A stretch of 33,303 nt of DNA from Candidatus Roizmanbacteria bacterium (GTDB lineage: Bacteria; Patescibacteriota; Microgenomatia; UBA1406; GWC2-37-13), in assembly GCA_013335175.1 (NCBI GenBank), contig JAAXWC010000015.1:1-33303 (forward strand), in the 5' to 3' direction. Both the position numbers and the translations under genes were made by a program. The notes beneath the pieces were generated by a model that was given only the letters and a program-made list of their open reading frames with translations, ran no database searches and was not told where the DNA came from. Positions 3,445 to 33,303 of this stretch are shown piece by piece (positions within the stretch are counted from its first letter, which is position 1; each line of letters begins with the position of its first letter).

Positions 3445-3445
3445 A

Positions 3446-5284: not shown

Positions 5285-5296
5285 GAAGAAGTGGTA

Positions 5297-5325
5297 AATA
5301 TAATACCTATTTAATTCATTGTAAA
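5297..5325 (-). promoter_or_regulatory. sigma70 promoter of the GH130 operon
   Basis: On the minus strand TTTACA (5320-5325) and TATATT (5297-5302) are separated by exactly 17 bp. Transcription should begin about 6 nt before the ATG at 5284, giving an almost leaderless mRNA. This rules against the longer reading frame starting at 5368. Confidence 0.6.
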
Positions 5326-5438
5326 AGAATTGTAAAAAAGTGCAAGAGCAAATTACTATTACGTTCATTTTACCGATCTCATTTATACGTTTAGGATAAG
5401 TAATTTATAGTTAGACTCTCTTACTATTTACCTATTAA

Positions 5439-5903: not shown

Positions 5904-7293
5904 AGGAATAAAGCGTGGCTGTCGGGTCCTGATGTACTATTGTTAAAGAGTGTTGGATCCGCTGGACCATCTTTACATCCGTAGTGCGAATTAATAAATA
6001 CGAGATATTATATTTTTCCTGTATTGTTTTGAAAGGAATTTTTCCGGCCATTACATCCATATATTCTTTAAATGCATACGAACTTTGGTTCTGTTTTTTG
6101 TTTGGCAGTCGCCAGGTTGGCATTCTTCCGTCTATAAATACTTTTTTCTCTGGCAGGTTCCAGATAAGATAGCCTCCCCACTCATACAGAGAAAATATGT
6201 TTCCCTCAAGATGCTGTCCTTTTATAAAGAGAACAGATTGTTTGGGGTACCAGTGTTCTTCTTGAGAAATAAATGTATCTTTTAAATTCATACCTGTCTG
6301 GGCAATGCAAACAACAATGACAATGCTAAAAAATATCTTATACATGAACCAGAACCGTTCTTTTCCCTCTGAAATTTTTTTTACATCTGAATAAAAAAAT
6401 TGAATCGCTGCGACTGTCATTCCGAGTGAAACGATAAACCAAAGTATCATATGGCGGATACTCCATAACCCCATCAATAAAAAAAATACATAAGTTATTT
6501 TTTCAAATAATGAAAAATGATTTCTCTGCTTCCAGACGAGTACCAATGAAAATGCGGTATAGAACCACAACGGAATCAAAGGTATAAAAATGGTGGGTAA
6601 CCACTCAGAAATTGCGGTATGCAGATACTGATCATTGGAAATCGAGAGTATCTCTTCCCATAGTCGAAATCCATAGGGTGAAATGACCGAAGAAATCACT
6701 GAGAATAATACGATTAGCCAATCTTGGATCGTTATTTTCCGTTTTTGAAGGAAACAACTTACAAAAAATAGAACCAATAAAATAAGCCCAATAAAAAATG
6801 AGCCGTGAATATTGGTCCAAAAAAGAAGAATAAAGGGGATGAGGTATCGTTGCCAAGTAAGTCTGTCATAGTTCTTTAAAAGAATGAAAAAAAGAGAAAA
6901 TATAAACCAAACAATTATCTGGATTCGTATGCCAACAAACGATAATATCGTTACGAAAATGAGGAGGAGGGGGAGAACGGCAAACGAGTAATATTTTTTG
7001 GGAATTTGAATAATAAAGGCGGAGAGGAGAACACCCGTAAACAGAAGGGATAGAAGGCCCATCCTCCCAAACTTATACAGCTGATAAATGAAGATATTTG
7101 CTAGCCATTCGTAGTCGACAAATGGGTAGCTTGGCATCGTATAGGAAAAAGGATCTGTTTTGGGAATTCCGTGTTGTAGGATGTACTCGCCCATTTTTAA
7201 ATGCCAACCAAAATCGGGATCAATAGAGACTACGCCAATAAACCAAAACAATATAAAAAAGAGTGCGATCACGCTCCCATATACATATTTCAT
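5896..7293 (-). CDS. polytopic GT-C-like membrane glycosyltransferase candidate
   Basis: The 465-residue protein has about ten hydrophobic helices. The first extracytoplasmic loop reads DPDFGWHLKMGEYILQHGIP, then TDPFSYT and WLANIFIYQLY. This D-x-D, W-H-x-x-x-G-E pattern is typical of GT39-like or related lipid-linked-sugar transferases (GT-C fold), which move sugars from polyprenyl phosphate onto acceptors outside the membrane. A soluble C-terminal part (about 365-465) contains YEWGGYLIW and FIDGRMP, also usual in this family. Two start codons are possible. The one at 7293 is preferred because a TATAAT box (7301-7306) overlaps the upstream ATG at 7302 and lies 7 nt from 7293. Donor and acceptor are unknown; a role in cell-envelope glycosylation is inferred. 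Confidence 0.75.
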   Translation of the reverse strand: MKYVYGSVIALFFILFWFIGVVSIDPDFGWHLKMGEYILQHGIPKTDPFSYTMPSYPFVDYEWLANIFIYQLYKFGRMGLLSLLFTGVLLSAFIIQIPKKYYSFAVLPLLLIFVTILSFVGIRIQIIVWFIFSLFFILLKNYDRLTWQRYLIPFILLFWTNIHGSFFIGLILLVLFFVSCFLQKRKITIQDWLIVLFSVISSVISPYGFRLWEEILSISNDQYLHTAISEWLPTIFIPLIPLWFYTAFSLVLVWKQRNHFSLFEKITYVFFLLMGLWSIRHMILWFIVSLGMTVAAIQFFYSDVKKISEGKERFWFMYKIFFSIVIVVCIAQTGMNLKDTFISQEEHWYPKQSVLFIKGQHLEGNIFSLYEWGGYLIWNLPEKKVFIDGRMPTWRLPNKKQNQSSYAFKEYMDVMAGKIPFKTIQEKYNISYLLIRTTDVKMVQRIQHSLTIVHQDPTATLYSFK

Positions 7294-7300
7294 ACCCTTC

Positions 7301-7306
7301 ATTATA
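7301..7306 (-). promoter_or_regulatory. -10 box, leaderless start of the membrane glycosyltransferase
   Basis: TATAAT on the minus strand lies 7 nt upstream of the ATG at 7293 and overlaps the in-frame ATG at 7302. That makes the latter an unlikely start. No good -35 at 17 bp spacing was seen. Confidence 0.45.
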
Positions 7307-7332
7307 TCCTTATTTCTTCCTCATCAACCAGG

Positions 7333-7361
7333 ATGATACGATAATAAAACTCCATTATAAT
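7333..7361 (+). promoter_or_regulatory. promoter of the carotenoid operon, leaderless crtE
   Basis: A perfect TATAAT (7356-7361) lies 6 nt before the crtE ATG, with ATGATA (7333-7338, 4 of 6 to the -35 consensus) 17 bp upstream. Transcription should start at or next to the A of the start codon. No Shine-Dalgarno sequence exists. Confidence 0.6.
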
Positions 7362-7367
7362 TACAGC

Positions 7368-8447
7368 ATGACACAACTACTGTTTAAACAGAAACTAAAT
7401 ACATTTTTATTAGAATTTGAACCACGGTTAGAGAATTATTTTGAAAACAAAATTGAAGAAAGGAAAAATGATACTGAAGCATCTCAGTATGTACTCAAAG
7501 AAATTCAGCGTATCACTCTTTCTGGAGGAAAACGACTACGCCCTGCACTCGTTTATTTTGGATATCTCCTTGGGGAAAAGCAAGTTGAAGAGGAACTATT
7601 TTCCATCGGAATTGCACTCGAACTCTTTCATGCCTATCTCTTGATTCATGATGATATTATGGATCAGGCAGAAACAAGAAGGGGCATTCCAACGATTGAA
7701 TCCATATATAAACAAAAATTTCAATCTCTGAGTAACAAGGACCATCTAGCAGTAACGGGGGCAATACTCGCGGGAGATTATGCCAGTATGCTCGCTCATG
7801 AAATAATCAGCACCATTCCCCTCTCGCCCTCGATTAAAACACTGCTTTTGAACCTGTTTTTTGCGATGCAACATGAAGTTGTATCGGGACAAATTGATGA
7901 TTGTTTGGGCGTAGGAATTGAGGATTTTGACCATATTTCCGAGGAGAATATTGTAACGATGCTAAAGAATAAATCGGGAAGGTATTCTATTGAAAAACCG
8001 CTATTAATCGGAGCGACCCTCGCTGAAGTTTCACCAAAAAAACTGAATCTATTACACCAACTGGGAGATGATCTGGGGCTGCTATTTCAGATTGTTGATG
8101 ACATGATAGGTATATTTGGAGATGAAAAAAAGACTGGTAAACCAAGCAACTCAGATATTTTTGAAGGAAAACGAACGCTCCTCATGTTTTACACGTATCA
8201 GTGTGCCTCAGAGAATGAACGATTAAGAATGAAACAGATACTTGGGAATAGAGCTGCTTCAGCGAAGGATGTAATCTGGCTTAAAGGGTTTATCCAAGAA
8301 AAAGGGATTGATACAAAACTTAAAACGTACACCGAAGATTTGGAAGAAAAAACTCAGGCACTCCTCAGAGATCACTTTGAACCAACAAACCAAGGAGTAC
8401 CGTTTCTCTCTCATCTTGCAACCTATCTCCTCAAACGAGAGCAGTAA
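7368..8447 (+). CDS. crtE: polyprenyl diphosphate synthase (GGPP-type)
   Basis: It condenses isopentenyl diphosphate units with an allylic diphosphate, supplying the C20 precursor for carotenoids. The 359-residue protein shows GGKRLRP at 53-59, the first aspartate-rich motif DDIMD at 95-99 with following RRG, KSGRY, and the second motif DDMIGIFGD at 244-252. These are complete for an active all-alpha prenyltransferase. A tyrosine (Tyr90) five residues before the first motif could limit chain length, so the product (C15 versus C20) is not certain; the operon argues for geranylgeranyl diphosphate. The frame is open to 7263, but ATG 7368 follows a perfect -10 box by 6 nt. It is first in crtE-crtYc-crtYd-crtI-crtB and is separated from crtYc by 20 nt. 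Confidence 0.93.
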   Translation: MTQLLFKQKLNTFLLEFEPRLENYFENKIEERKNDTEASQYVLKEIQRITLSGGKRLRPALVYFGYLLGEKQVEEELFSIGIALELFHAYLLIHDDIMDQAETRRGIPTIESIYKQKFQSLSNKDHLAVTGAILAGDYASMLAHEIISTIPLSPSIKTLLLNLFFAMQHEVVSGQIDDCLGVGIEDFDHISEENIVTMLKNKSGRYSIEKPLLIGATLAEVSPKKLNLLHQLGDDLGLLFQIVDDMIGIFGDEKKTGKPSNSDIFEGKRTLLMFYTYQCASENERLRMKQILGNRAASAKDVIWLKGFIQEKGIDTKLKTYTEDLEEKTQALLRDHFEPTNQGVPFLSHLATYLLKREQ

Positions 8448-8454
8448 TAGTGGG

Positions 8455-8460
8455 TATAAT
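8455..8460 (+). promoter_or_regulatory. possible internal -10 box upstream of crtYc
   Basis: TATAAT lies 7 nt before the crtYc ATG, in the only non-overlapping gap of the carotenoid operon. No -35 box stands out. It repeats the spacing seen at other starts in the window and may give a second, leaderless transcript. Confidence 0.35.
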
Positions 8461-8467
8461 ATATGGT

Positions 8468-8830
8468 ATGCATCACTTTGAATACTTTATTGTTGAACTG
8501 CTTTGCTTTTCGTTCCCTCTTATTTTTACCCTTATTCATCGCAAGACCGTAGCAAAACAAGAAAACTTGAAAGTACTTAATCCTACGGTATTCTTGGCCA
8601 GTATCCCCTTTCTTATCTGGGATGTCCTTGTTACCGCACGCGGACACTGGTCATTCAACCCAGACTATATTACGGGAATAAAACTCGCAAATTTACCCAT
8701 TGAAGAAGTTCTTTTTTTTCTCCTTATTCCGCAATCATGCTTATTGATTTGGGTCGCGATGAACCGCTATACCTCTTTGAATGATTTAAAAAAAGACATT
8801 TTGCACCATTTTGAAAATATTCATCTATGA
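8468..8830 (+). CDS. crtYc: lycopene cyclase subunit, CrtYc-type
   Basis: This is one half of the heterodimeric membrane lycopene cyclase, the type best known from actinobacteria; fused versions occur in archaea and fungi. The 120-residue protein has about three transmembrane helices and the family's WDVLVTARGHWSFNPDYITG segment, followed by LPIEEVLFFLLIP, the conserved PxEE motif implicated in activity. It needs CrtYd as partner to cyclise lycopene ends. GTG at 8450 would add six residues. ATG 8468 is preferred because a TATAAT box lies 7 nt upstream. Its TGA overlaps the crtYd ATG by four bases, indicating coupled translation. Confidence 0.88.
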   Translation: MHHFEYFIVELLCFSFPLIFTLIHRKTVAKQENLKVLNPTVFLASIPFLIWDVLVTARGHWSFNPDYITGIKLANLPIEEVLFFLLIPQSCLLIWVAMNRYTSLNDLKKDILHHFENIHL

Positions 8831-9126
8831 AAGAATATCTTGTATTGGATGGTATCGGTTTTTTTATCGTTCTATTGCTCGACGGAATACTAAAAACGCA
8901 TGTACTGCAAAGAAAAAAGTTCTGGATATTTCAGTTTATCTGCGCAGGATTATTAACGGTAGTAGACAATTATCTTTCCGGCCGCCCTATCATTCTTTTT
9001 AGCCCACAGTATCTTCTCAACATCCACATAGGTGCCGTCCCTATTGAAAACTATCTTTACAGTTTTAGTTTGTTAACGCTTAATCTTATACTATTCGAAT
9101 ATTTTAAAAACCGTGAAAAAAAATAA
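8827..9126 (+). CDS. crtYd: lycopene cyclase subunit, CrtYd-type
   Basis: Second half of the split lycopene cyclase. The 99-residue membrane protein has three hydrophobic helices, VVDNYLSGRPIILFSPQYLL in the middle, then the signature VPIENYLYSF that mirrors the PxEE motif of CrtYc. Together with CrtYc it would convert lycopene to a monocyclic or bicyclic carotene. The start codon overlaps the crtYc stop (ATGA), and its 3' end overlaps crtI by 14 nt. No Shine-Dalgarno sequence is present, so translation is probably coupled to crtYc. A C50-type elongase/cyclase is an alternative, but no crtEb-like prenyltransferase is nearby. Confidence 0.87.
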   Translation: MKEYLVLDGIGFFIVLLLDGILKTHVLQRKKFWIFQFICAGLLTVVDNYLSGRPIILFSPQYLLNIHIGAVPIENYLYSFSLLTLNLILFEYFKNREKK

Positions 9127-10594
9127 GGTAATAATTATCGGAGCAGGATTGGGAGGTCTGACTGCTGCATGCTATCTTGCAAAAGCAGGGTGTGAAGTAA
9201 CTATCCTCGAAAAAAATTCCTGGGTCGGCGGAAGAATTCAAACGTGGAAAGAACAAGGTTTTACCATTGATATGGGTCCCAGTTGGTACTGGATGCCCCA
9301 GGTATTTGAGGATTTCTTTGCTGATTTTGGAACTTCCGTATCTGATTATTACCAATTAAAGCGTCTCAATCCCTCGTATCGGATATATTTTAAAGATGAA
9401 GCGGTAGATCTTCCCGCTGATCAGGACGAACTGTGTGATTTGTTTGAAAGATATGAAACAGGAGCAGGCAATAAGCTAAAACGCTTGCTGAGTGAGACAA
9501 AACGCGTGTATCAAATTGCGATGCGCAGCTTTATTCCCAAATCGTACCACTCATTTTTTGACGTATTAACACCTTCTCTCTTTCAGGAAGGTTTTCGTAT
9601 TCTATCCACGTACAATGGATTTCAATCGGTGGAATCGTATCTGAGTTCATTTTTCAAGCATCCTAAACTCATAAAAATGTTAGAATTCCCCATCTTTTTT
9701 TTGGGTGGATCTTCTTCTGAAATTCCGGCTGTATATAGCATTATGAACCATGTAGATATGGATCAAGGGACCTGGTACCCTATTGGCGGGATGGCAAAAG
9801 TCGGGTCAGCATTTCAGAAACTTGCTGAAAGTTTGGGAGTAAAAATCTATCTCAATGAAGAGGTTGTATCTCTTCCCGTTCACCAATCCCGTATTACACA
9901 GGTGGTGACAACAAAGCAGACATGTGAGGCGGATTATGTTATTTCCAATGCCGATTATCCGTATACCGAAAACACGTTATTATCGCCCGAAAATCAGAGT
10001 TACTCTCCCTCCTATTGGGAGAAACGAGCACTTGCGCCCTCTGCTTTTCTTGTCTACCTCTGTTTAAATAAAAAAGTTACACGGTTACTTCACCATACCC
10101 TGTTTTTTCATACCGACTGGGATGCACATAACCAGAACCTATTTCAAAAACCTAAGTGGCCCGAAAATCCGCTTTATTATGTATCTTGTCCGACCAAAAC
10201 AGACCCTACCCTAGCTCCAAAAGATCAAGATATTTTGGTTATTTTGATTCCCCTTGCCGCCGGATTAGAGGATAATCCAAGTTTAAGAGAAACATATTAT
10301 AATAAGGTTTTAAGAGATCTGGAAGATACGACGGGAGAACCAATTCGCGACTCAATTCGTGCAAAAAAAATCTATGCTCTGAACGATTTTATACAAGATT
10401 TCCACGCATTTAAAGGAAACGCATACGGATTGGCACAAACACTTTGGCAAACCGCCCTGTTTCGTCCGAGTAATAGAAGTAAAAAAATTAAGAATCTCTC
10501 TTACACCGGACAGTTTACGGTACCAGGAATCGGATTGCCTATGGTTGTTATTTCGGGCAAACTGGCTGCTCATGAGTTACTTACACACCTATGA
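9113..10594 (+). CDS. crtI: phytoene desaturase
   Basis: FAD-dependent desaturase converting phytoene, normally in four steps, to lycopene at the membrane. The 493-residue protein starts with a dinucleotide-binding motif (VIIIGAGLGGLTAACYLA from residue 6) followed by an acidic strand end (LEKN) and VGGR. It ends with the bacterial carotenoid desaturase signature YTGQFTVPGIGLPMVVISGK. Length fits CrtI (about 490-510). Start is GTG at 9113, inside the end of crtYd; the Rossmann motif right behind it supports this choice. The stop overlaps the crtB ATG (ATGA). Desaturation number cannot be read from sequence; a ketolase or desaturase of diapo-type carotenoids is less likely given the cyclase genes. 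Confidence 0.94.
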   Translation: MKKNKVIIIGAGLGGLTAACYLAKAGCEVTILEKNSWVGGRIQTWKEQGFTIDMGPSWYWMPQVFEDFFADFGTSVSDYYQLKRLNPSYRIYFKDEAVDLPADQDELCDLFERYETGAGNKLKRLLSETKRVYQIAMRSFIPKSYHSFFDVLTPSLFQEGFRILSTYNGFQSVESYLSSFFKHPKLIKMLEFPIFFLGGSSSEIPAVYSIMNHVDMDQGTWYPIGGMAKVGSAFQKLAESLGVKIYLNEEVVSLPVHQSRITQVVTTKQTCEADYVISNADYPYTENTLLSPENQSYSPSYWEKRALAPSAFLVYLCLNKKVTRLLHHTLFFHTDWDAHNQNLFQKPKWPENPLYYVSCPTKTDPTLAPKDQDILVILIPLAAGLEDNPSLRETYYNKVLRDLEDTTGEPIRDSIRAKKIYALNDFIQDFHAFKGNAYGLAQTLWQTALFRPSNRSKKIKNLSYTGQFTVPGIGLPMVVISGKLAAHELLTHL

Positions 10595-11415
10595 TTTCCC
10601 CTGATATTTACCAATTATTTAAGAAAAATAGTAAGACATATTTCACCAGCAGTCTGTTTTTCCCACGGGATGTGCAAGATAAAATTGCAACATTATATGC
10701 CTTTGTCCGAACGGCAGATAATTTTGTCGACACGTTGCCACAACAAAAAAAAGAATTCCTTGCGTTTGAGAAAGAGTACTACGCGGTACGAAGTGGCAAA
10801 AAAACGAAACAACCTATCCTTCAATTATTTTCAAAACTAGAAACAGAAGAACAGTTTGATACTGGTTGGACCGATGCTTTTTTAGCTTCAATGAAAATGG
10901 ATCTTACCAAAAAAACATATACTTCTCTTGCTGAAACTGAGTCGTACATTTATGGCTCTGCAAATGTTATTGGGCTCTATATCGCCAAAATACTGCATCT
11001 TCCTCAAACGAGCTATCACTACGCTGAATTGCTCGGAAAAAGTATGCAGTTTATGAATTTTATTCGTGATATCAATGAAGATATCCAGTTAGGACGCAAT
11101 TATTTTCCTCAAGAAGATATGAAACGGTTTTCTTTACAAAGTCTTGACTATCAAGAAACCCGGGAAAAACCGGAGCAGTTTTGCAGATTTGTCCAGTTCC
11201 AAATTCAGCGATATAATCAATGGCAAAAAGAAGCGGAGAAAGGATTTCAATATATTCCAAAACGTTATCTCACCCCTATTAAAACTGCATCAGAAATGTA
11301 TAAATGGACAAGCGCCATCATTCAAAAAGATCCATTTATCGTATATAGAAAAAAAATAAAACCATCCTATGCGCGCATTGTTTCTACCGCTTTTTTAATA
11401 TGGCTAAAAAAATAA
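10591..11415 (+). CDS. crtB: phytoene synthase
   Basis: It joins two geranylgeranyl diphosphates head to head to make phytoene. The 274-residue protein contains both aspartate-rich motifs of the squalene/phytoene synthase family: DNFVD at 43-47 and RDINEDIQLGRNYFP starting at 159. YAFVRTADNFVD and YIYGSANVIGLY are also typical. It is slightly shorter than usual (about 290-310) because the C-terminal helix region is trimmed. As last gene of the operon it overlaps crtI by 4 nt, and its final 32 nt overlap the convergent GT87 gene. Confidence 0.93.
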   Translation: MISPDIYQLFKKNSKTYFTSSLFFPRDVQDKIATLYAFVRTADNFVDTLPQQKKEFLAFEKEYYAVRSGKKTKQPILQLFSKLETEEQFDTGWTDAFLASMKMDLTKKTYTSLAETESYIYGSANVIGLYIAKILHLPQTSYHYAELLGKSMQFMNFIRDINEDIQLGRNYFPQEDMKRFSLQSLDYQETREKPEQFCRFVQFQIQRYNQWQKEAEKGFQYIPKRYLTPIKTASEMYKWTSAIIQKDPFIVYRKKIKPSYARIVSTAFLIWLKK

Positions 11416-25664: not shown

Positions 25665-25725
25665 CTCCCCCGATAAATTACTGATTATATCGTTTATCCA
25701 TCGTTTGATGCAGTTTTACCCGAAA
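25665..25725 (-). repeat. array repeat R1
   Basis: The most diverged copy. It shares CTCCCCCGATAAATTACT at one end and the stretch TTTGATGCAGTTTTACC at the other. On the minus strand one frame reads VKLHQTMDKRYNQ-stop. It runs across the 3' end of the YecM-like gene in a different frame. Confidence 0.75.
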
Positions 25726-26194
25726 CTATCTCAAGTATCGGTTGTAAGTGAAATTTAACCTGGATCGTATCACCTAGTTTAATCTTTATCATGGGAAAAC
25801 CAGGCTGATTTATAGCTGTCGTATCCCAGTGTAAATCCGGATATTTGTTCATAAACGAATCAAAGCTTTCGGTTAACACAAACTCTACGTGTTCGAGAGC
25901 TGAAGGACAGGTCTGCCCTGCTTTTGGTGCGATGAGTTCAATTGCAGGAATTATGTACTGATGAAACTGTAAAGCCTGACTTAATTTATATATCCCAACC
26001 CTTCTTCCGCCAACTATTTCTTCAGAAACTAGCGAACCAAAATTGTTGAACTCATTTTTTAGGGTGTTATAATCTTCATCCGACGATGCTTGGTATCCAA
26101 TGTGATCCATATTGAGTTTTTCAACATCAATACCATGATTTTTTAACTTATGAAGAATAGTTTTTATAAAATCATCGTAATTATCGAGTATCAT
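25694..26194 (-). CDS. YecM-like VOC-superfamily protein
   Basis: The 166-residue protein resembles E. coli YecM, a glyoxalase/VOC-fold protein of unknown function. LNMDHIGYQASSDEDYNTLK corresponds to the YecM DHI segment, and LVSEEIVGGRRVGIYKL, ALEHVEFVL and IQVKFHLQPILEIV follow in the same order. His and Glu in DHI and HVEFV are possible metal ligands. The last eight residues (GKTASNDG) are encoded by array repeat R1 read in another frame, so the natural C-terminus has probably been replaced. It starts 6 nt after the stop of the zinc-binding protein gene. Confidence 0.75.
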   Translation of the reverse strand: MILDNYDDFIKTILHKLKNHGIDVEKLNMDHIGYQASSDEDYNTLKNEFNNFGSLVSEEIVGGRRVGIYKLSQALQFHQYIIPAIELIAPKAGQTCPSALEHVEFVLTESFDSFMNKYPDLHWDTTAINQPGFPMIKIKLGDTIQVKFHLQPILEIVSGKTASNDG

Positions 26195-26200
26195 GGTTTG

Positions 26201-26530
26201 TTAAATTTTAATAATTTTTTTCAGTATTGCACCAACAAAAAGTCGAAATGCTAATCGCTTTTCTTTTTCATACAAATAAGGGACACCTATTAAAACATGA
26301 CATTCCGGACACAACAACGGTGGTATTTTTATTAATGGAATATTTTCTAATCCTGAATATTGTTCTGATCCAATAATTCTATCAATATACATCCTTTTTA
26401 ATATTCCGGGACCATCTTTTTGATAATAGAATATATGGTGAAAACACGCTCCACACTCAATATCTAATAGTCTTGAGTATCCACCACGAGATTGTTTGTA
26501 CTTATCATTTTTAAATATTGTATTTCCCAC
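26201..26530 (-). CDS. putative zinc-binding protein with two CxxC pairs
   Basis: The 109-residue protein has two knuckles: DIECGACFHH near residue 25 and LLCPECHVLIG near residue 75. YYQKDGPGILKRMYIDRI lies between them. The four cysteines should bind one zinc. The N-terminal MGNTIFKNDKYKQSRGGYSR and the basic C-terminal helix make a nucleic-acid role possible but unproven. The start codon is GTG. It is probably co-transcribed with the YecM-like gene (6 nt gap). Confidence 0.72.
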   Translation of the reverse strand: MGNTIFKNDKYKQSRGGYSRLLDIECGACFHHIFYYQKDGPGILKRMYIDRIIGSEQYSGLENIPLIKIPPLLCPECHVLIGVPYLYEKEKRLAFRLFVGAILKKIIKI

Positions 26531-26556
26531 AAGCTTTATTCTCTGAAAATAAATAG

Positions 26557-26988
26557 TTACTTTTTAAAGTAAGCAGTCATAAATAATCCGGTAACCGCAA
26601 TTGCTATTCCCACTAATTGAAGGAAATTAATACGTTCATGCCAAATTACCAATCCGAACACAACTCCATAAATAATAAGTGCAATATAGAAAATGGGAGT
26701 AAAAAGTGATTGAGGAGCGCCAAGAGCATATGCTTTAATGATTCCGAAATTACCGAGACTAATGAGCAGTCCAATACCGATAACGATCGGAATTACTTTA
26801 GAATTTAGTTCTAATGATTTGTTTGAAGAGAAAAGAAAATGCAATAGCAGCATAACAAGCATTCCGATACATGAAGCATAGGCATTTACCAAAAAAGCCG
26901 AAGTGCCTTTAGGCAACAGTTTTGAAAGTGTTTGGTAGGTAACAAAGAGGAATGGGACAAAAATGGCCAATATCTTCCAATCGAGCAT
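26557..26988 (-). CDS. single-domain EamA/DMT-superfamily transporter
   Basis: The 143-residue protein has about five helices and looks like one EamA repeat: LAIFVPFLFVTYQTLSKLLP first, LISLGNFGIIKAYALGAPQ in the middle and FGLVIWHERINFLQLVGIAI at the end. Full EamA permeases have two such repeats (about 300 residues); short ones are known to dimerise. The frame is open to 27051. ATG 26988 is preferred because a promoter lies 7 nt upstream and the extension is not family-like. Substrate unknown. Confidence 0.8.
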   Translation of the reverse strand: MLDWKILAIFVPFLFVTYQTLSKLLPKGTSAFLVNAYASCIGMLVMLLLHFLFSSNKSLELNSKVIPIVIGIGLLISLGNFGIIKAYALGAPQSLFTPIFYIALIIYGVVFGLVIWHERINFLQLVGIAIAVTGLFMTAYFKK

Positions 26989-26995
26989 ACTAGTA

Positions 26996-27023
26996 ATAGT
27001 AACATAACAAGTACTATTTACAA
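26996..27023 (-). promoter_or_regulatory. promoter of the EamA-like gene
   Basis: TTGTAA (27018-27023) and TACTAT (26996-27001) on the minus strand with 16-bp spacing; the ATG at 26988 follows 7 nt after the -10 box. Confidence 0.4.
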
Positions 27024-27136
27024 GAGCACCTACCCCCAATGTCAAGACCAATTTATAACAAAACGAAGCGTAAACTGATCAAAAAATGTGAACTATATTT
27101 TCTTAATTTTTAACATAAAGTTCCGCTGGTGTTTTG

Positions 27137-27180
27137 TTCTACCACCTTTCTACCACCTTTAAGGTGTGTTGTATTATCTT
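27137..27180. repeat. 44-bp repeat D, copy 1
   Basis: It contains tandem CTACCACC units (11-bp period) followed by AAGGTG, making a CACCTT-T-AAGGTG dyad. It is almost identical to the copy at 27815-27859 (two differences). It lies upstream of the EamA-like gene and downstream of the GNAT gene. Confidence 0.85.
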
Positions 27181-27222
27181 CGTTTTGATAGCTATCTATT
27201 ATATGTAAATCTCATGAATAAC

Positions 27223-27717
27223 TTATTCAAGTTTTATGATTAATTCCAATTCAATCTCATCCCTAATGGGAATTCCGTCATTGCCAAAAAAAGGGATCTC
27301 TTTTACCTTGCGCTGAGCTTCTATTACATTCGTACGTATAGCAGCTATAACAAATCCTCTCTTTTGATAGAAGCGAAGAGCCGTAGTGTTGTCATTTGTC
27401 GTTTGAAGCCATACTCGTTGGCATTTTGTTATTTTGGCAATCTCGCAAACTAATTCAATTAATCGAGAGCCTATCCCTTGTTTTTCAAACGAGCTATAAA
27501 GCGCAACTATTTCGCATTCTTTTTCTTCGATCGCATACAAAATAACTCCAATGGGTTTATTATTTTGTTCCGCAATAAAGCCGGGGAGGGCTTCTACTTT
27601 ATAAAGATGATCTTTACTGATAATTTCATCCGACCCCCATTGTTCCGTTGCTACTTTTTTTATCCAATCATCGTCATTATCATTCTTTTCTCGATATTGA
27701 ATAACAAATTCATTCAT
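27223..27717 (-). CDS. GNAT-family N-acetyltransferase
   Basis: The 164-residue protein has the GNAT fold, transferring acetyl from acetyl-CoA to an amine. Motif A is IVALYSSFEKQGIGSRLIEL, with Q-G-I-G for pyrophosphate binding. The later NTTALRFYQKRGFV is motif B, and GFIAEQNNKPIGVILYAI precedes them. The C-terminal IPIRDEIELELII is like many uncharacterised members. Upstream ATGs at 27735 and 27732 exist; ATG 27717 is chosen because TATACT lies 6 nt before it. The gene is flanked by two copies of repeat D. Confidence 0.87.
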   Translation of the reverse strand: MNEFVIQYREKNDNDDDWIKKVATEQWGSDEIISKDHLYKVEALPGFIAEQNNKPIGVILYAIEEKECEIVALYSSFEKQGIGSRLIELVCEIAKITKCQRVWLQTTNDNTTALRFYQKRGFVIAAIRTNVIEAQRKVKEIPFFGNDGIPIRDEIELELIIKLE

Positions 27718-27723
27718 GAGATG

Positions 27724-27729
27724 AGTATA
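27724..27729 (-). promoter_or_regulatory. -10 box, leaderless start of the GNAT gene
   Basis: TATACT on the minus strand, 6 nt before the ATG at 27717. It overlaps the region of the upstream in-frame ATGs and so argues against them. Confidence 0.5.
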
Positions 27730-27814
27730 CATCATGTTTAATAGATACGATGGACGATTTATTTGCTCAATAGGTGATTTCCTTTCTCAAGAAGCTGTAC
27801 CCTTCTTAATAATT

Positions 27815-27859
27815 TTCTACCACCTTTTCTACCACCTTTAAGGTGTGTTGTATTGTCTT
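27815..27859. repeat. 45-bp repeat D, copy 2
   Basis: Matches 27137-27180 except for one inserted T (making the tandem period 12 bp) and one substitution. The two copies flank the GNAT gene in the same orientation. Confidence 0.85.
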
Positions 27860-27865
27860 AACCAG

Positions 27866-27882
27866 ATGTTTATTATAAACAT
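27866..27882. promoter_or_regulatory. perfect 17-bp palindrome, operator-like
   Basis: ATGTTTAT and ATAAACAT are separated by a single T. Such perfect AT-rich dyads often bind a dimeric regulator, but no regulator gene is adjacent. Confidence 0.35.
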
Positions 27883-27939
27883 ATAAAAAGATGGGTTTCA
27901 ACCGTCTTCATTTTGAGAATGGCTCAAACCCTCAGCGTA

Positions 27940-28013
27940 GCTCCCCCGATATATTACTATTCGCCCCACTTGTGTTTTTCCTTCGTAAATTGATGTGGCT
28001 CCATCTCGTTGAA
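27940..28013 (-). repeat. array repeat R2
   Basis: A diverged copy, starting GCTCCCCCGATATATTACTA on the plus strand. On the minus strand its frame reads FNEMEPHQFTKEKHKWGE-stop, aligning residue by residue with the other copies. Confidence 0.75.
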
Positions 28014-28082
28014 GGCGATGAGACCAGCCTCTATCCCTAATTTATAAAAGAAGACAATGCATTCATCTATCAGGAGAAAATT
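27957..28082 (-). pseudogene. remnant of a protein-coding 3' end containing R2
   Basis: An open frame of about 41 codons reads through DECIVFFYKLGIEAGLIAFN and ends FNEMEPHQFTKEKHKWGE-stop. It has no start codon at its beginning and overlaps the end of the PhnB-like gene by 20 nt. Its last 18 residues align with the C-termini encoded by the other array repeats, so it preserves more of the ancestral gene than they do. The protein family is not recognised. Confidence 0.45.
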
Positions 28083-28491
28083 CTATGATCCATTCAATGC
28101 CGTATTTATCTCGAAGCATACCCGCATATGAACCCCACGGACTGTCACCCATTGACCCTTCTACTTCTCCGCCAGCCGAAAGCCCAGTAAATATTTTGTC
28201 TGCTTCTTCTTTATTTTTCGTACTTACCAAAATTTTACTTCGATTTTCTTGCTCATTTACTCGTCCAAAAATCTCCGGAACATCATTGGCTATCAACACA
28301 GTATCTGCCCCAATAGGTAGGGCAATATACATTATTTTATTTTCTTCTTTTTCTGACACAGGGAATTCAGTGCTGGCAATGTCCTTGAAACGGACTACTT
28401 TCGCAAACTCTCCGCCGAATATTGATTTATAAAATGTAAATGCTTCTTCTGCATTACCGTTGAAGTTGATCCAAGGATTTATTGTTGTCAT
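28063..28491 (-). CDS. PhnB-like VOC/glyoxalase-superfamily protein
   Basis: The 142-residue protein begins INPWINFNGNAEEAFTFYKS and continues with IFGGEF, then IMYIALPIGADTVLIANDVP and WGSYAGMLRDKYGIEWII. This is the PhnB-type VOC family (3-demethylubiquinone-methyltransferase-like), normally 135-150 residues, with unknown substrate in most cases. It forms a single-gene unit between array repeats R2 and R3 with its own -10 box 7 nt before the start. Confidence 0.86.
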   Translation of the reverse strand: MTTINPWINFNGNAEEAFTFYKSIFGGEFAKVVRFKDIASTEFPVSEKEENKIMYIALPIGADTVLIANDVPEIFGRVNEQENRSKILVSTKNKEEADKIFTGLSAGGEVEGSMGDSPWGSYAGMLRDKYGIEWIIEFSPDR

Positions 28492-28498
28492 ATGTTAT

Positions 28499-28504
28499 AT
28501 GATA
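28499..28504 (-). promoter_or_regulatory. -10 box of the PhnB-like gene
   Basis: TATCAT on the minus strand (5 of 6), 7 nt before the ATG at 28491. Confidence 0.4.
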
Positions 28505-28539
28505 CCAATTTATAGTAATTGGATAAAAGCTTTTATTTT

Positions 28540-28612
28540 GCTCCCCCGATGAAAGACTATTCGCACCGCTTGTAGCGTTTCTTCATAGTTTGATGCAGGT
28601 TATTTCACGAAA
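28540..28612 (-). repeat. array repeat R3
   Basis: Starts GCTCCCCCGATGAAAGACTA on the plus strand. On the minus strand it reads LHQTMKKRYKRCE-stop. It begins within a few nt of the HAD gene stop codon. Confidence 0.85.
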
Positions 28613-29093
28613 ACTCTGTATTTGATAATAGACCTTCTATAATAGGAATAAGTTCTTCAATTGCTTCTATTGTATAGTCGGGATTTTGTTTGTCATTTAT
28701 TGGTTTCCAGTCTGCTGACAATCTCTGTCGAGTCCAAACGGTATGCGCGCCAATGCTATTACCCTCTTCTATATCTCTCTTTAAATTATCGCCGATAATG
28801 ATTGCTTTTCTGGGATTTTCGCTTACTCCTAACTCATCAAATATCTTGCCAAAATTTTTACTTTTAATACTTCTTGCAATAATGCTTATCGCTGAAAAAA
28901 ATTGCATTATCCCTAGCTCATTCAACTCTTTCAATCTTTGATCAGTGTCATCGGTTTCTGCAATACTAACCAATCCGAGTTTAAGATTTCTATTTTGAAG
29001 TTCTGTTAATGTATCTATAACTCCTGGAAAAAGGGCTTTTATTGTTGGATCATAGAGTGTTCGTCCGAAGTCAAAAATAACCGCTTCAATCAT
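28605..29093 (-). CDS. HAD-superfamily hydrolase
   Basis: The 162-residue protein carries the HAD motifs in order: motif I VIFDFGRTL (nucleophile Asp8; the usual second Asp is Gly), motif II KLGLVSIAETDD with Ser, and motif IV AIIIGDNLKRDIEEG preceded by the motif III lysine region KSKNFGKIF. The cap is short, so it is a C0/C1-minimal phosphatase-like protein. Loss of the second motif I aspartate, normally the general acid, questions phosphatase activity. It is a single-gene unit between R3 and R4 and has a near-perfect promoter. It ends in TGA. Confidence 0.83.
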   Translation of the reverse strand: MIEAVIFDFGRTLYDPTIKALFPGVIDTLTELQNRNLKLGLVSIAETDDTDQRLKELNELGIMQFFSAISIIARSIKSKNFGKIFDELGVSENPRKAIIIGDNLKRDIEEGNSIGAHTVWTRQRLSADWKPINDKQNPDYTIEAIEELIPIIEGLLSNTEFS

Positions 29094-29099
29094 GATGAG

Positions 29100-29128
29100 A
29101 GTGTAGTAGGAAGATAATCAGATGTCAA
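29100..29128 (-). promoter_or_regulatory. promoter of the HAD gene at the edge of R4
   Basis: TTGACA (29123-29128, perfect) and TACACT (29100-29105) on the minus strand, 17 bp apart; ATG follows 6 nt later. The -35 box begins 9 bp beyond the GCTCCCCC end of R4. Confidence 0.6.
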
Positions 29129-29137
29129 TCCAACCCT

Positions 29138-29211
29138 GCTCCCCCGATGTATTACTATTCGCACCGCTTGTAGCGTTTCTTTATAATCTGATGCAGTTTT
29201 ATCTCGTTGAA
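29138..29211 (-). repeat. array repeat R4
   Basis: Starts GCTCCCCCGATGTATTACTA on the plus strand. On the minus strand it reads FNEIKLHQIIKKRYKRCE-stop. It lies between the divergent HAD gene and the surface-protein gene. Confidence 0.85.
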
Positions 29212-29296
29212 GTGACAAGGCTGAAAAAGGGAGTTATTGAACAAATAAACTTCAACGTAAACTAAATTGTGTCTTTATTATTTTAACTACTATTGT

Positions 29297-29302
29297 TATA
29301 AT
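29297..29302 (+). promoter_or_regulatory. -10 box, leaderless start of the surface-protein gene
   Basis: A perfect TATAAT, 6 nt before the ATG at 29309. It excludes the upstream start at 29267. Confidence 0.5.
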
Positions 29303-29308
29303 AATAGC

Positions 29309-30070
29309 ATGGATCCTAATTCTGCACCTCCACTATTCTCGGAATCTCTTCCACCATCCGGAAATCGTATATCATTGCCAATCGTAATAATGGCAATTGT
29401 TCTAATACTGGTTATCGCGAGTGGAAGTTACTATTTGGGATTGCAATCTCATCATTCCACCTCTCAACCGACAGCTGCAGTTCCCACGGTCGCACCCACT
29501 GTCACTCTCGAGACACCACCCAACTCCCCAACAATACAACCTTTAAACATAAAAAAACAAACCGTCGTTATCACAACAAATCCACCAACATCAGTTTTTC
29601 CAAGTTCCCCTGACAACGAATTTAAGGCCTATACAAACAACGGAATGAAGGTCACTCTTCAGTATCCAACACATTGGAAGATGGTTTCAAACTGCAAATT
29701 TGGAGCTATTTGTTTTTCAAGTACAGATTTTCAGGAAAAATTATCAGGGGTTGGAGATGGAGGAGGTTTTTACTATGCTATCAAAGGTAATTTATTTTCA
29801 TTATCTTCGTCTCCCAGAATGAGCGAAATGAAGCTTGATGATTTCTGTCACCCCGGAGGCCCTATAAAAATACACTCGTGTTTTGATCTAACTTTAGATG
29901 GATACAGTGCTAAAAAAAGGATAGAAGTATTAGATAATAATGTCGAGTTTGCCACAACAATTGCCGTACTTACTGAAAATCAGTTTCTTACGATCGGCTT
30001 AACTTATGCCTCTAAGGAAGATTCTGTACTTCTCGATAAGATCTTATCTACGTTTAAGTTTATCAAATAA
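29309..30070 (+). CDS. membrane-anchored surface protein, Thr/Pro-rich linker
   Basis: The 253-residue protein has a Pro-rich cytoplasmic start (MDPNSAPPL), one transmembrane helix (about 23-45) and a long Thr/Pro/Val linker (about 50-105). An outer domain follows, with NNGMKVTLQYPTHWKMVSNC, ICFSSTDF, and four cysteines able to form disulfides. The Y-P-x-x-W start resembles PsbP-like or lipoprotein domains of unknown function. Same layout as the proteins at 22505-23308 and 31901-32791; probably a small paralogous family. It is the only plus-strand gene in the repeat array, lying between R4 and R5. Confidence 0.7.
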   Translation: MDPNSAPPLFSESLPPSGNRISLPIVIMAIVLILVIASGSYYLGLQSHHSTSQPTAAVPTVAPTVTLETPPNSPTIQPLNIKKQTVVITTNPPTSVFPSSPDNEFKAYTNNGMKVTLQYPTHWKMVSNCKFGAICFSSTDFQEKLSGVGDGGGFYYAIKGNLFSLSSSPRMSEMKLDDFCHPGGPIKIHSCFDLTLDGYSAKKRIEVLDNNVEFATTIAVLTENQFLTIGLTYASKEDSVLLDKILSTFKFIK

Positions 30071-30105
30071 ATATTCGTGTAAACCTATTCATCACGTCCC
30101 ACTTG

Positions 30106-30200
30106 GCTCCCCCGACCGATTACTTTGTAACGTTTCTTCATAGTCAGATGTAGTTCTACCTTGTTGAAAATGAAGAGGTGGAAAGAAAGAAGGAAATAAG
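30106..30200 (-). repeat. array repeat R5 with extended flank
   Basis: Starts GCTCCCCCGACCGATTAC, then lacks about a dozen bases of the middle present in other copies. The far end continues as GAAGAGGTGGAAAGAAAG, matching R7. On the minus strand it reads FNKVELHLTMKKRYK and then runs on in a shifted frame. Confidence 0.8.
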
Positions 30201-30216
30201 CTAATGTTTTCCTTTC

Positions 30217-31668
30217 TCAAAAAGATCTAGCTCGTGCTGTTTTACTAAATACAAAAGGGGAACCTAATATGATTCTTTGTAATGGCCCGCTTATTTTATA
30301 TAAATTAACTACTTTTACCGTTTCCGGATGTGTAGAATAGTTTTGAATAAATCTGTTAGTATAACTATTCATCATATTAAACATTGCTTCCCCTGCTGTT
30401 TGGCCTTGGCTAAACAAAATAAAAAAATCTGTTTGTGAATTTGTAAACCAAAGGGCGTCCTGTACTTCAGATATATCGGTATTGTCAAGTTTCCCAATAA
30501 ATGTAAGTCCTAGATCCTTTCCATTAATAATGGATAAACCCAAAGACGTTGATTCATACTCTAAAAAGTTACCATTTTGGCAACCCCAAGAAAATGTTAA
30601 TAAAGGTAACCCTGTTCTTTGTAATATATCTGCCCCAGTTATATCTTTTGACTTACTCCAAATATCCGTACGATTCCCATGTGTGTGTATATATGCTAAT
30701 TCAGGTAGTTTTTCAAAGTTAGAAAATAATGCTGGGTAGTATGATTCGAGTTGATCACATTGATCAGAAGGGCTTAAGGCTAGAACATTATCTTTTCCAT
30801 AGATGGGAATCATTGGTTGAACCATTTCAAGTGCTGAGGGACAATGAATCATACTAATCATGAAAGGTGAAGTTGATATTTGATCAGAAAAGTACCGATG
30901 GTGTTTATCAAAATAATATTTAAGCTGTGTTATATACGGTATGTTTGTTAGAGAAGGTTGACCATTTTTAGTATTAGCTATACTAAGTGGTTTAATCCAT
31001 GAAACATATATTTCAGGACCTGAATGGAGACCTTGGATTGAGTATCCATTGTAATGGCCATTTGGTTTTATCAAATAGGTAGAATCAAGATCTTCATAAT
31101 AAAACTGGAAAGGTGCAGTATTATCATTATCATATGACATATCATACAGTGCATAAGGAATATCTCCTACAAAGATAGCCCCTTCAATATCTTGACATCC
31201 GTTTTTATCCAAATTACATTTCGACACTAGTATTTGCCTAATTCGCTCTGGACTATACATAGGGGCATTATCTAGAGGTACAATCTCTATTGTTTTTTTT
31301 AGCACTCTGGATACGTCAATTTGCATTTCACTGAGTTGCATAGTAAGCTGCAAAGCATCATTATTATCAATCAATAGTAATACTTTATTTCTTCGATTCG
31401 ATTCACTTTGTGAATAGCTTAATTTCCAAATATTAATATCATTATCATTTGTTTTACCATCGAAATTTAAATCTGTCCATTCAGTGGACTGATCGCAGTA
31501 TTCTGCTTGACGTAAACGTTCAAAATCTCTCAAACTTATTTTTTCATCGCAATCAACATCACCCACTCCATGTTGAAAACATGTAGGTAGGTTATCGACT
31601 GCGTGAGTTTGTATCACTGATAAGCTGAAGCAACAGATAATGAGGATATTAAATATTATTTTTTTCAT
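30217..31668 (-). CDS. secreted dockerin-bearing caspase/gingipain-like protein
   Basis: The 483-residue protein has a signal peptide (about 1-23, MKKIIFNILIICCFSLSV). A dockerin-like pair of calcium loops follows (DVDCDEKISLRDF at 37-49 and DLNFDGKTNDNDI at 66-78). A large domain follows with a candidate His/Cys dyad: IHTHGNRTD (His330) and TFSWGCQNGNF (Cys363), as in clan CD peptidases (C25 gingipain-like, caspase-like). Earlier strands KVLLLID and GAIFVGDIPY fit the alpha/beta/alpha core, GDIPYA being common in C25-like proteins. It should be exported. Dockerins bind cohesins, but no cohesin gene is in view. It ends in a basic tail. Single-gene unit between R5 and R6. Proteolytic activity is inference. 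Confidence 0.72.
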   Translation of the reverse strand: MKKIIFNILIICCFSLSVIQTHAVDNLPTCFQHGVGDVDCDEKISLRDFERLRQAEYCDQSTEWTDLNFDGKTNDNDINIWKLSYSQSESNRRNKVLLLIDNNDALQLTMQLSEMQIDVSRVLKKTIEIVPLDNAPMYSPERIRQILVSKCNLDKNGCQDIEGAIFVGDIPYALYDMSYDNDNTAPFQFYYEDLDSTYLIKPNGHYNGYSIQGLHSGPEIYVSWIKPLSIANTKNGQPSLTNIPYITQLKYYFDKHHRYFSDQISTSPFMISMIHCPSALEMVQPMIPIYGKDNVLALSPSDQCDQLESYYPALFSNFEKLPELAYIHTHGNRTDIWSKSKDITGADILQRTGLPLLTFSWGCQNGNFLEYESTSLGLSIINGKDLGLTFIGKLDNTDISEVQDALWFTNSQTDFFILFSQGQTAGEAMFNMMNSYTNRFIQNYSTHPETVKVVNLYKISGPLQRIILGSPFVFSKTARARSF

Positions 31669-31813
31669 GAATTTATCTAAAGTATAATGGAATAAAACTA
31701 CTATAAACCTATAACTTTATCTGTAATAGTCAAAAATTGCTAGAATTCTCTATAAACAATTTCGAAAAAAATACTTTGCTTTTATTCTGTTGTTAAAAAT
31801 GGTTTTTTTCTAT

Positions 31814-31885
31814 GCTCCCCCCATGTATTATTACTCGCACCGCTTGTGTCGTTTCTTCATAGACTGATGTAGGTTTATAGAAGTG
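31814..31885 (-). repeat. array repeat R6
   Basis: Starts GCTCCCCCCATGTATTATTA on the plus strand. On the minus strand it reads INLHQSMKKRHKRCE-stop, with synonymous CTA, CGA and GAG codons and TAA for TAG. It lies directly after the stop codon of the surface-protein gene at 31901. Confidence 0.82.
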
Positions 31886-31900
31886 AAAAATTCCAGAATA

Positions 31901-32791
31901 TTATTTGACCACTTTTGCAGATTTTATTATTGCCTCAATCACGTTTATTGTATTCTGATTATTTGGACGGGCAACAAATTCTAAGTAATTTACACCATTT
32001 AGAAGATGATATACTACTGCATTATTGTAGATGCTTGTACTTGGAACTGAGCTAGCTGGTGGAGTATATTTACCAATAAATCCGACTGCAGATACGACTG
32101 GTTCGTATGATACTGTCGAGTATGTAGTGATGCCAGGCTTATTACAATCGCGAACTAAAGGATACCCAAACTCTTTATTAAAAGTTTTTTGTAAATTTTG
32201 TTCTGGAGTAGTCAAATCTTCTTCTTTATTATGGTCTCCATCAAAGACTGATCCTCCGGTAACGCTAATTATAATATCCGATTTAGTAAACGTATTTAAA
32301 TATATATCTTGGGCAGAGTTCACTTGTTTCATATTTGTTAACAGTGCTATTAAGTTACCTTGTCCGGAATTATCGATAATCTTTTTAAACTCTTTTGGAT
32401 AATCGAAGGTATAACCAAAAAAAGCATATGTTTTACTTTCCCTACTTATTTCATTTAGCCGATTACAGTCAGAGCTTGATCCGTATGTAATTGAGCTCAT
32501 TGTTGTCGTGGAAGGTTTTATGGTAAGGGTATTCGTAAGATTAAGCTCATTGCCCGATGGCTTCGGAACAGATGAGGGTTTATTAATTGTTGGAGTGGCC
32601 GTGTTCTTGTATATGGGACTCGGCACTTTAGAATCATTTTTTTCAGAATATTGTGTGATCTTCACTGTCTGAATACCTTCATTATATTTCATCCCCAGAT
32701 AAAACCCCACAAACGGCAAGAGGATAAAAAGCACCATTGCCAAACCTTTTGAAAGTGGGGTTGCTGTTGTAAGCGTTGAAGGAAGCTTCAT
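31901..32791 (-). CDS. membrane-anchored surface protein, Thr/Pro-rich linker
   Basis: The 296-residue protein has one N-terminal transmembrane helix (LAMVLFILLPFVGFYLGMKY, about 18-37) and a Ser/Thr/Pro/Lys-rich linker to about residue 100. The extracytoplasmic domain includes FFGYTFDYPKEFKKIID and two cysteines. The C-terminal LNGVNYLEFVARPNNQNTIN helix-strand end resembles the other two anchored proteins here. N-terminal helix and short lysine start could also act as an uncleaved signal anchor. Function unknown. It has a good promoter at the edge of R7 and a leaderless start. Confidence 0.7.
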   Translation of the reverse strand: MKLPSTLTTATPLSKGLAMVLFILLPFVGFYLGMKYNEGIQTVKITQYSEKNDSKVPSPIYKNTATPTINKPSSVPKPSGNELNLTNTLTIKPSTTTMSSITYGSSSDCNRLNEISRESKTYAFFGYTFDYPKEFKKIIDNSGQGNLIALLTNMKQVNSAQDIYLNTFTKSDIIISVTGGSVFDGDHNKEEDLTTPEQNLQKTFNKEFGYPLVRDCNKPGITTYSTVSYEPVVSAVGFIGKYTPPASSVPSTSIYNNAVVYHLLNGVNYLEFVARPNNQNTINVIEAIIKSAKVVK

Positions 32792-32797
32792 AGATTA

Positions 32798-32826
32798 AGT
32801 ATAGAAGAAATACCGTGCTTTTTCAA
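32798..32826 (-). promoter_or_regulatory. promoter of the surface-protein gene at the edge of R7
   Basis: TTGAAA (32821-32826) and TATACT (32798-32803) on the minus strand, 17 bp apart; ATG 6 nt later at 32791. As at R4, the -35 box lies just past the GCTCCCCC end of the repeat. Confidence 0.6.
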
Positions 32827-32835
32827 TCCAGTTTT

Positions 32836-32932
32836 GCTCCCCCGATGAAAGACTATGCACACAGCTTGTAACGTTTCTTCATAGTTTGATGCAGTTTTAC
32901 CTCATTGAAAACGAGGAGGCGGAAAGAAAGGA
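32836..32932 (-). repeat. array repeat R7 with extended flank
   Basis: Starts GCTCCCCCGATGAAAGACTA on the plus strand. On the minus strand it reads FNEVKLHQTMKKRYKLCA-stop. The far end (GGCGGAAAGAAAGGAG) matches the R5 flank. It is the last copy seen before the insertion sequence. Confidence 0.85.
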
Positions 32933-33199: not shown

Positions 33200-33303
33200 G
33201 ACCAGATGGTAAGCTTACAATATGGGAGAAAAAAAGATGAGGCGGGTACATACACCCGCATTCAAAAAACAGGTAGTGTTAGCACTTTTTCGAGGGGAAA
33301 AGA
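33179..33303 (+). mobile_element. left end of an IS3-family insertion sequence (partial)
   Basis: TATACTTACCCCCATAAACT at 33179 resembles the left terminal inverted repeat of IS3-family elements of the IS150 type (TGTACTGACCCC-like). It is followed 43 nt later by a typical orfA start. The element runs off the window, so the right end, target duplication and orfB cannot be seen. Confidence 0.7.
33222..33303 (+). CDS. IS3-family transposase OrfA, N-terminal part
   Basis: The visible 27 residues read MGEKKMRRVHTPAFKKQVVL followed by ALFRGEK. This is the start of the helix-turn-helix DNA-binding subunit of IS3-family transposases (R-R-x-x-T/P-x-F-K-x-x-V-V-x-x-x-L-x-G-E). OrfA normally overlaps a downstream orfB with frameshifting; both lie beyond the window. 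AGCTTACAATATGGG shows no strong ribosome-binding site. Confidence 0.8.
   Translation, partial: MGEKKMRRVHTPAFKKQVVLALFRGEK

Follow-up and report, generated by a model that had tools for sequence, protein, structure and literature searches.

P0001, a protein of 483 residues encoded in a genome of Candidatus Roizmanbacteria, is best read as a cell-surface cysteine peptidase tethered through a dockerin-cohesin contact, a reading that we hold with somewhat more confidence than doubt and in which the peptidase function is putative. The gene lies at 30217..31668 on the minus strand of a 33,303-nucleotide stretch of DNA (the window), and it begins with ATG. A sequence-only reading of the same DNA had placed an open reading frame at exactly this position, without giving the strand. 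If our interpretation is true, P0001 offers a concrete example of a small-genome Patescibacterium that shows an enzyme on its outside by means of cohesin-dockerin binding and sortase. Our confidence was slightly lowered because further histidines are conserved in the enzyme part and because an unrelated metalloproteinase outranked the expected gingipain in a structure search.

The amino terminus has the features of an export signal, as had been claimed. Residues 1-23 (31600..31668, minus strand) form a predicted signal peptide in which a K-K pair precedes a hydrophobic stretch, with cleavage placed by eye after THA. Mean hydropathy is 2.65 in the 15-residue windows that start at residues 4 and 5, and the six most hydrophobic windows of this length all fall at this end of the protein. 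P0001 would therefore be exported by a Sec-type route. NCBIfam and PADLOC scans of P0001 returned no match, and a fold model of the whole protein from its single sequence (pLDDT 31.8) was of no use.

A dockerin domain follows the signal, at residues 36-80 (31429..31563, minus strand), N-terminal to the catalytic part. The two dockerin repeats that had been proposed are both present as complete calcium loops (D.[DN].[DNS]...[DNST]..D), at residues 37-48 and 66-77, with starts 29 residues apart; at least two such loops occurred in 0.045% of 20,000 shuffles of the protein. The Pfam family Dockerin_1 matches the segment with an E-value of 0.0066 and 17.1 bits, below its curated cut-off of 22.9, and with 20.7 bits, still below the cut-off, when the whole genome is searched. 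That genome (1.45 Mb, 46 contigs) holds four dockerin matches, P0001 included. When the entire protein was compared with 96 genomes, its own among them, six genomes matched besides itself, and they did so around the dockerin only (query residues 15-95). The sequence-only reading had called the domain combination unusual for a minimal-genome bacterium. For the dockerin this does not hold: it is ordinary for this group, since 244 of the 349 genomes of the class, including this one, have dockerin matches. For the catalytic domain it does: a two-sequence profile matched 2 of 372 genomes of the class, this one included.

The partners needed for tethering are encoded in the same genome. A cohesin partner had been suggested, and we found three cohesin domains above cut-off, all on contigs other than that of the P0001 gene and all on small proteins of 191-238 residues. 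Two of these proteins (206 and 238 residues) consist of a signal-like N-terminal stretch, a cohesin and a C-terminal tail, read by eye, of LPRSG followed by hydrophobic and basic residues. The third has a hydrophobic N-terminal stretch, and its gene adjoins that of a dockerin protein. Together with three sortases, these findings place plug, sockets and anchoring enzymes all in one genome. The dockerin would fold round two calcium ions and plug into a cohesin on one of the cell's own surface proteins, and the two LPRSG-tailed cohesin proteins would be fixed to the envelope by one of the three sortases. Once there, Cys363, activated by His330, may cleave proteins that reach the cell surface, either yielding nutrient peptides or trimming surface proteins of the cell itself or of its neighbours.

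Alternatively, the dockerin-like segment might do no more than bind calcium and stabilise the catalytic part, or bind within the protein, and the enzyme would be released untethered. The sub-threshold Dockerin_1 score of 17.1 bits, the location of the segment between signal and enzyme, and the wide spread of dockerin matches across the class would all suit such an arrangement. However, both calcium loops are complete and start 29 residues apart, and the genome encodes cohesins that score above cut-off. Moreover, the nearest homologue, from Candidatus Gottesmanbacteria RBG_16_37_8 (L030; 39% identity, E 2e-60, on a contig that ends after the cysteine motif), carries a membrane helix at its N-terminus where P0001 has its dockerin. 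The same domain on a different tether argues for tethering, and we consider release of the enzyme unlikely.

The catalytic domain comprises residues 95-483 (389 residues; 30220..31386, minus strand) and is homologous to L030 over domain residues 2-288; it is also aligned with its relatives in A5, A7 and A9. Close relatives are rare. The catalytic part alone found only itself among 379 genomes of the phylum, and a profile built from the two Patescibacteria sequences rang in 2 of the 372 class genomes, P0001's own and one other, where the match (99494-100321) coincides with the place of L030. We therefore assign the P0001 genome to the class of the Gottesmanbacteria, within Patescibacteria. A Peptidase_C25 profile run over the 379 phylum genomes gave no match, but the run was blind, as it also missed P0001 and rang in no control genome. 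A first scan of species-genome contigs for the plain domain produced 41 pattern stretches, none of which was confirmed. A second scan, with the pattern widened round GDIP, produced 268 stretches and eight confirmed loci, with E-values that are relative to the candidates of that scan only.

The seven confirmed loci other than L030 are distant relatives from Bacteroidota and, in one case, Neomarinimicrobiota. HEAT repeats were found in all six that were scanned; L035, by eye almost identical to L033, was omitted when the alignments were built. A tblastn search of plasmids added three tandem copies on a Bacteroides plasmid (L055) and a remote relative from Salipiger (L054), for which the plain domain gave an E-value of 0.8 and hhalign a probability of 91% (E 1.1e-6). 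In the Salipiger protein (L054:3803-7060), the same domain lacks the His-Gly pair and precedes RTX calcium repeats and a C39-like peptidase domain. On the plasmid of Bacteroides finegoldii (L055:1523-8100), the three HEAT-repeat relatives stand in tandem beside a gene for a DUF6850 outer-membrane barrel. Viral contigs and phages searched with the plain domain, and viral scans with three domain alignments, yielded no relative. The Bacteroidota and Neomarinimicrobiota members (L031-L037 and L055) have the domain in common with P0001, along with its G-D-P, HG and C..G.F motifs. Unlike P0001, they have a long insertion between histidine and cysteine and C-terminal HEAT repeats, and dockerin is absent from their Pfam matches.

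Conservation across this family centres on a few motifs. In alignment A9, which holds 12 sequences, the G, D and P of AIFVGDIP (residues 164-171; 31156..31179, minus strand) are invariant. So are Phe368 and the putative nucleophile Cys363, which sits in WGCQNGNF (30580..30582, minus strand). His330 (30679..30681, minus strand), the putative catalytic base, and Gly331 after it are kept in 11 of the 12, all but Salipiger; a single Bacteroides plasmid supplies three of the sequences, which do not each count as independent evidence. This conservation supports the His330/Cys363 pair of the sequence-only reading. Which histidine acts as the base is uncertain, although His330 is likely, because His328 too is found in 11 sequences (all but L033), as is another histidine column, His447, in a stretch that aligns poorly and has a gap in L030, and because Salipiger has a histidine at 328 and none at 330. 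Four further cysteines are common to P0001 and L030, three of them found in none of the other ten sequences and the fourth, Cys158, also in one Bacteroides copy; these shared extra cysteines would suit extracellular disulphide bonds. A6, a three-sequence alignment, was discarded because misalignment had cost it the cysteine column.

The domain could instead be a non-peptidase relative, either a transpeptidase or processing enzyme or an inactive adhesive protein. We know of no member of the family with tested activity. The missing histidine at 330 in Salipiger, the HEAT repeats of the scanned Bacteroidota and Neomarinimicrobiota members, and the outer-membrane barrel gene that adjoins three copies in one annotated locus would each be at home with that explanation. 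Yet an inactive scaffold would need neither an invariant Cys363 nor a His330-Gly331 pair kept in 11 of 12 sequences, and we find a non-peptidase role rather improbable. A putative cysteine peptidase, or else a peptidase-like transferase, of a divergent gingipain-like family remains our preferred reading of the domain.

To which family this peptidase-like domain belongs is harder to say. Peptidase_C25, the gingipain family, matches P0001 over residues 328-440, starting at the HTHG motif, with an E-value of 0.055 and 13.1 bits, below the cut-off of 23. It matches two of the 12 sequences (best E 0.021), and no other Pfam family matches more than a single one. The sequence-only reading had proposed a caspase/gingipain-like enzyme of clan CD, and a structural model gives this a mixed outcome. 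Built from eight sequences, the domain model has a mean pLDDT of 48 and a pTM of 0.41, with values near 46 in the blocks that hold His330 and Cys363. Its strands stop at domain residues 236 (His330) and 269 (Cys363), in agreement with the proposal, but the model is too weak to prove such a fold and gives no significant fold match. In Foldseek, the gingipain RgpB came at rank 35 (E 0.95, probability 0.12), with an unrelated metalloproteinase higher, at rank 18. VIA-align gave RgpB a Z-score of 7.7 (rmsd 4.0 over 123 residues), mostly over model residues 1-170 rather than the catalytic half. Unrelated enzymes reach the same score, which falls within the noise range stated by the tool; RgpB was the only peptidase that we noticed among the best 50 VIA-align matches, and it was not significant. 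No fold stood out in either the Foldseek or the VIA-align list, and in both the catalytic half was hardly covered. PDB sequences searched by profile gave no gingipain, only what appear to be chance matches. A caspase-like fold of the catalytic domain is suggested by the model. Because the model is weak and the RgpB match not significant, we describe the domain as probably gingipain-like and file it in neither family C25 nor clan CD. If our reading is true, it defines a peptidase-like family that, above their cut-offs, Pfam and NCBIfam leave unnamed in the members scanned.

RgpB (family C25, clan CD) offers one comparison. Its catalytic dyad lies at the ends of two strands, according to the part of the source consulted (PMC4357240), and the modelled positions of the His-Gly pair and the cysteine of P0001 are alike in this respect. 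The His-Cys distance of 33 residues also equals that of RgpB if the RgpB histidine is 211, as the flanking Gly210 and Gly212 imply; the passage itself prints 221 (PMC4357240). P0001 differs from RgpB in that its sequence is too distant for the C25 profile cut-off and a dockerin lies between signal and enzyme. That the domain is unrelated to gingipains and its His-Gly and Cys pattern arose by chance would explain the weak C25 scores and the lack of a significant fold or PDB sequence match, but we think this quite unlikely in view of C25 being the sole Pfam family to match more than one member, the predicted strand ends and the conditional RgpB spacing.

The gene had been described as part of an array, and we found seven copies of an intergenic element at about 25.6-32.9 kb (25665-32910), with the P0001 gene between two of them, one downstream (30106..30169, plus strand, 58.7 bits) and one upstream (31813..31888, plus strand, 74 bits). 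The copies are 60-76 nucleotides long, all on the plus strand, and share the core GCTCCCCCGAT...GTTTGATGCAG. From 27.9 to 32.9 kb, one gene stands between element copies: a VOC-like protein, a HAD protein, two membrane-anchored proteins and P0001. The genome has nine element matches, namely the seven of the array, a partial one on another contig and a weak one at 23.4 kb of the window. Across 280 genomes, this one included, four others gave one weak match each; the cassette-like array is almost unique to its own genome among those searched. Rfam at gathering scores matched nothing in the window, the element included. The reading as an integron cassette array is not supported, as attC boxes (RYYYAAC, GTTRRRY) occur singly near two of the seven copies and nowhere as a pair. 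Arrival of the P0001 gene by gene transfer fits both the array and the rarity of the domain.

Several other features of the window deserve mention. A 34-nucleotide direct repeat, 97% identical (27147-27180 and 27826-27859), flanks a GNAT acetyltransferase gene (27223-27735), and the contig ends within an open frame at 33222-33303 (MGEKKMRRVHTPAFKKQVVLALFRGEK) that we take to resemble the start of an insertion-sequence transposase. A carotenoid-type cluster at 7263-11415 encodes two lycopene cyclase halves, an amine-oxidase-family protein and a squalene/phytoene synthase, and a further gene in it is presumably polyprenyl synthase-like. Two neighbouring proteins of about 640 residues are encoded at 1528-5368; the first belongs to GH130, matched over two stretches, and the second looks similar by eye.

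A broader and doubtful idea would join tether, domain and array. The unnamed gingipain-like branch, marked by G-D-[ILV]-P and found in at least four phyla, might be a swappable surface tool of Patescibacteria, held here by a dockerin on a sortase-anchored cohesin and in Gottesmanbacteria by a membrane helix, carried in this genome in an array of one gene per repeat that perhaps moves genes, and acting on a partner cell's surface. A role of P0001 in host-cell contact, as the sequence-only reading had envisaged, is speculation.

How does a tethered peptidase of this kind compare with known systems? Sortase has been reported in another Microgenomates genome in the portion of that study consulted (PMC7143001). 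The dockerin protein SEML1_0315 of a cultured Saccharibacteria epibiont is described as essential (PMC10633639, in part); as compared by text only, it resembles P0001 in that a cell-envelope protein of a Patescibacterium bears a dockerin. Unlike P0001, it comes with no mention of a peptidase in the passage concerned (PMC10633639). A literature search on dockerin, cohesin and gingipain returned, among the matches listed, no description of a dockerin joined to a gingipain-like peptidase in Patescibacteria. The pairing itself is already published, as seen in part of a study of Candidatus Stygibacter of the Cloacimonadota, which has a dockerin-bearing gingipain-like peptidase (C25) and a cohesin scaffold (PMC8542988), and the picture of cellulosome-like complexes is therefore unchanged. 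As far as that text goes, the Stygibacter peptidase shares with P0001 a signal peptide, a dockerin, a gingipain-like peptidase and a cohesin protein in the genome, but its dockerin is C-terminal and its scaffold is a protein of 3,755 amino acids with repeated cohesins (PMC8542988). Here, in another phylum, the dockerin is N-terminal, the peptidase domain scores below the C25 cut-off, and the cohesins sit on proteins of 191-238 residues, two of them with LPRSG tails.
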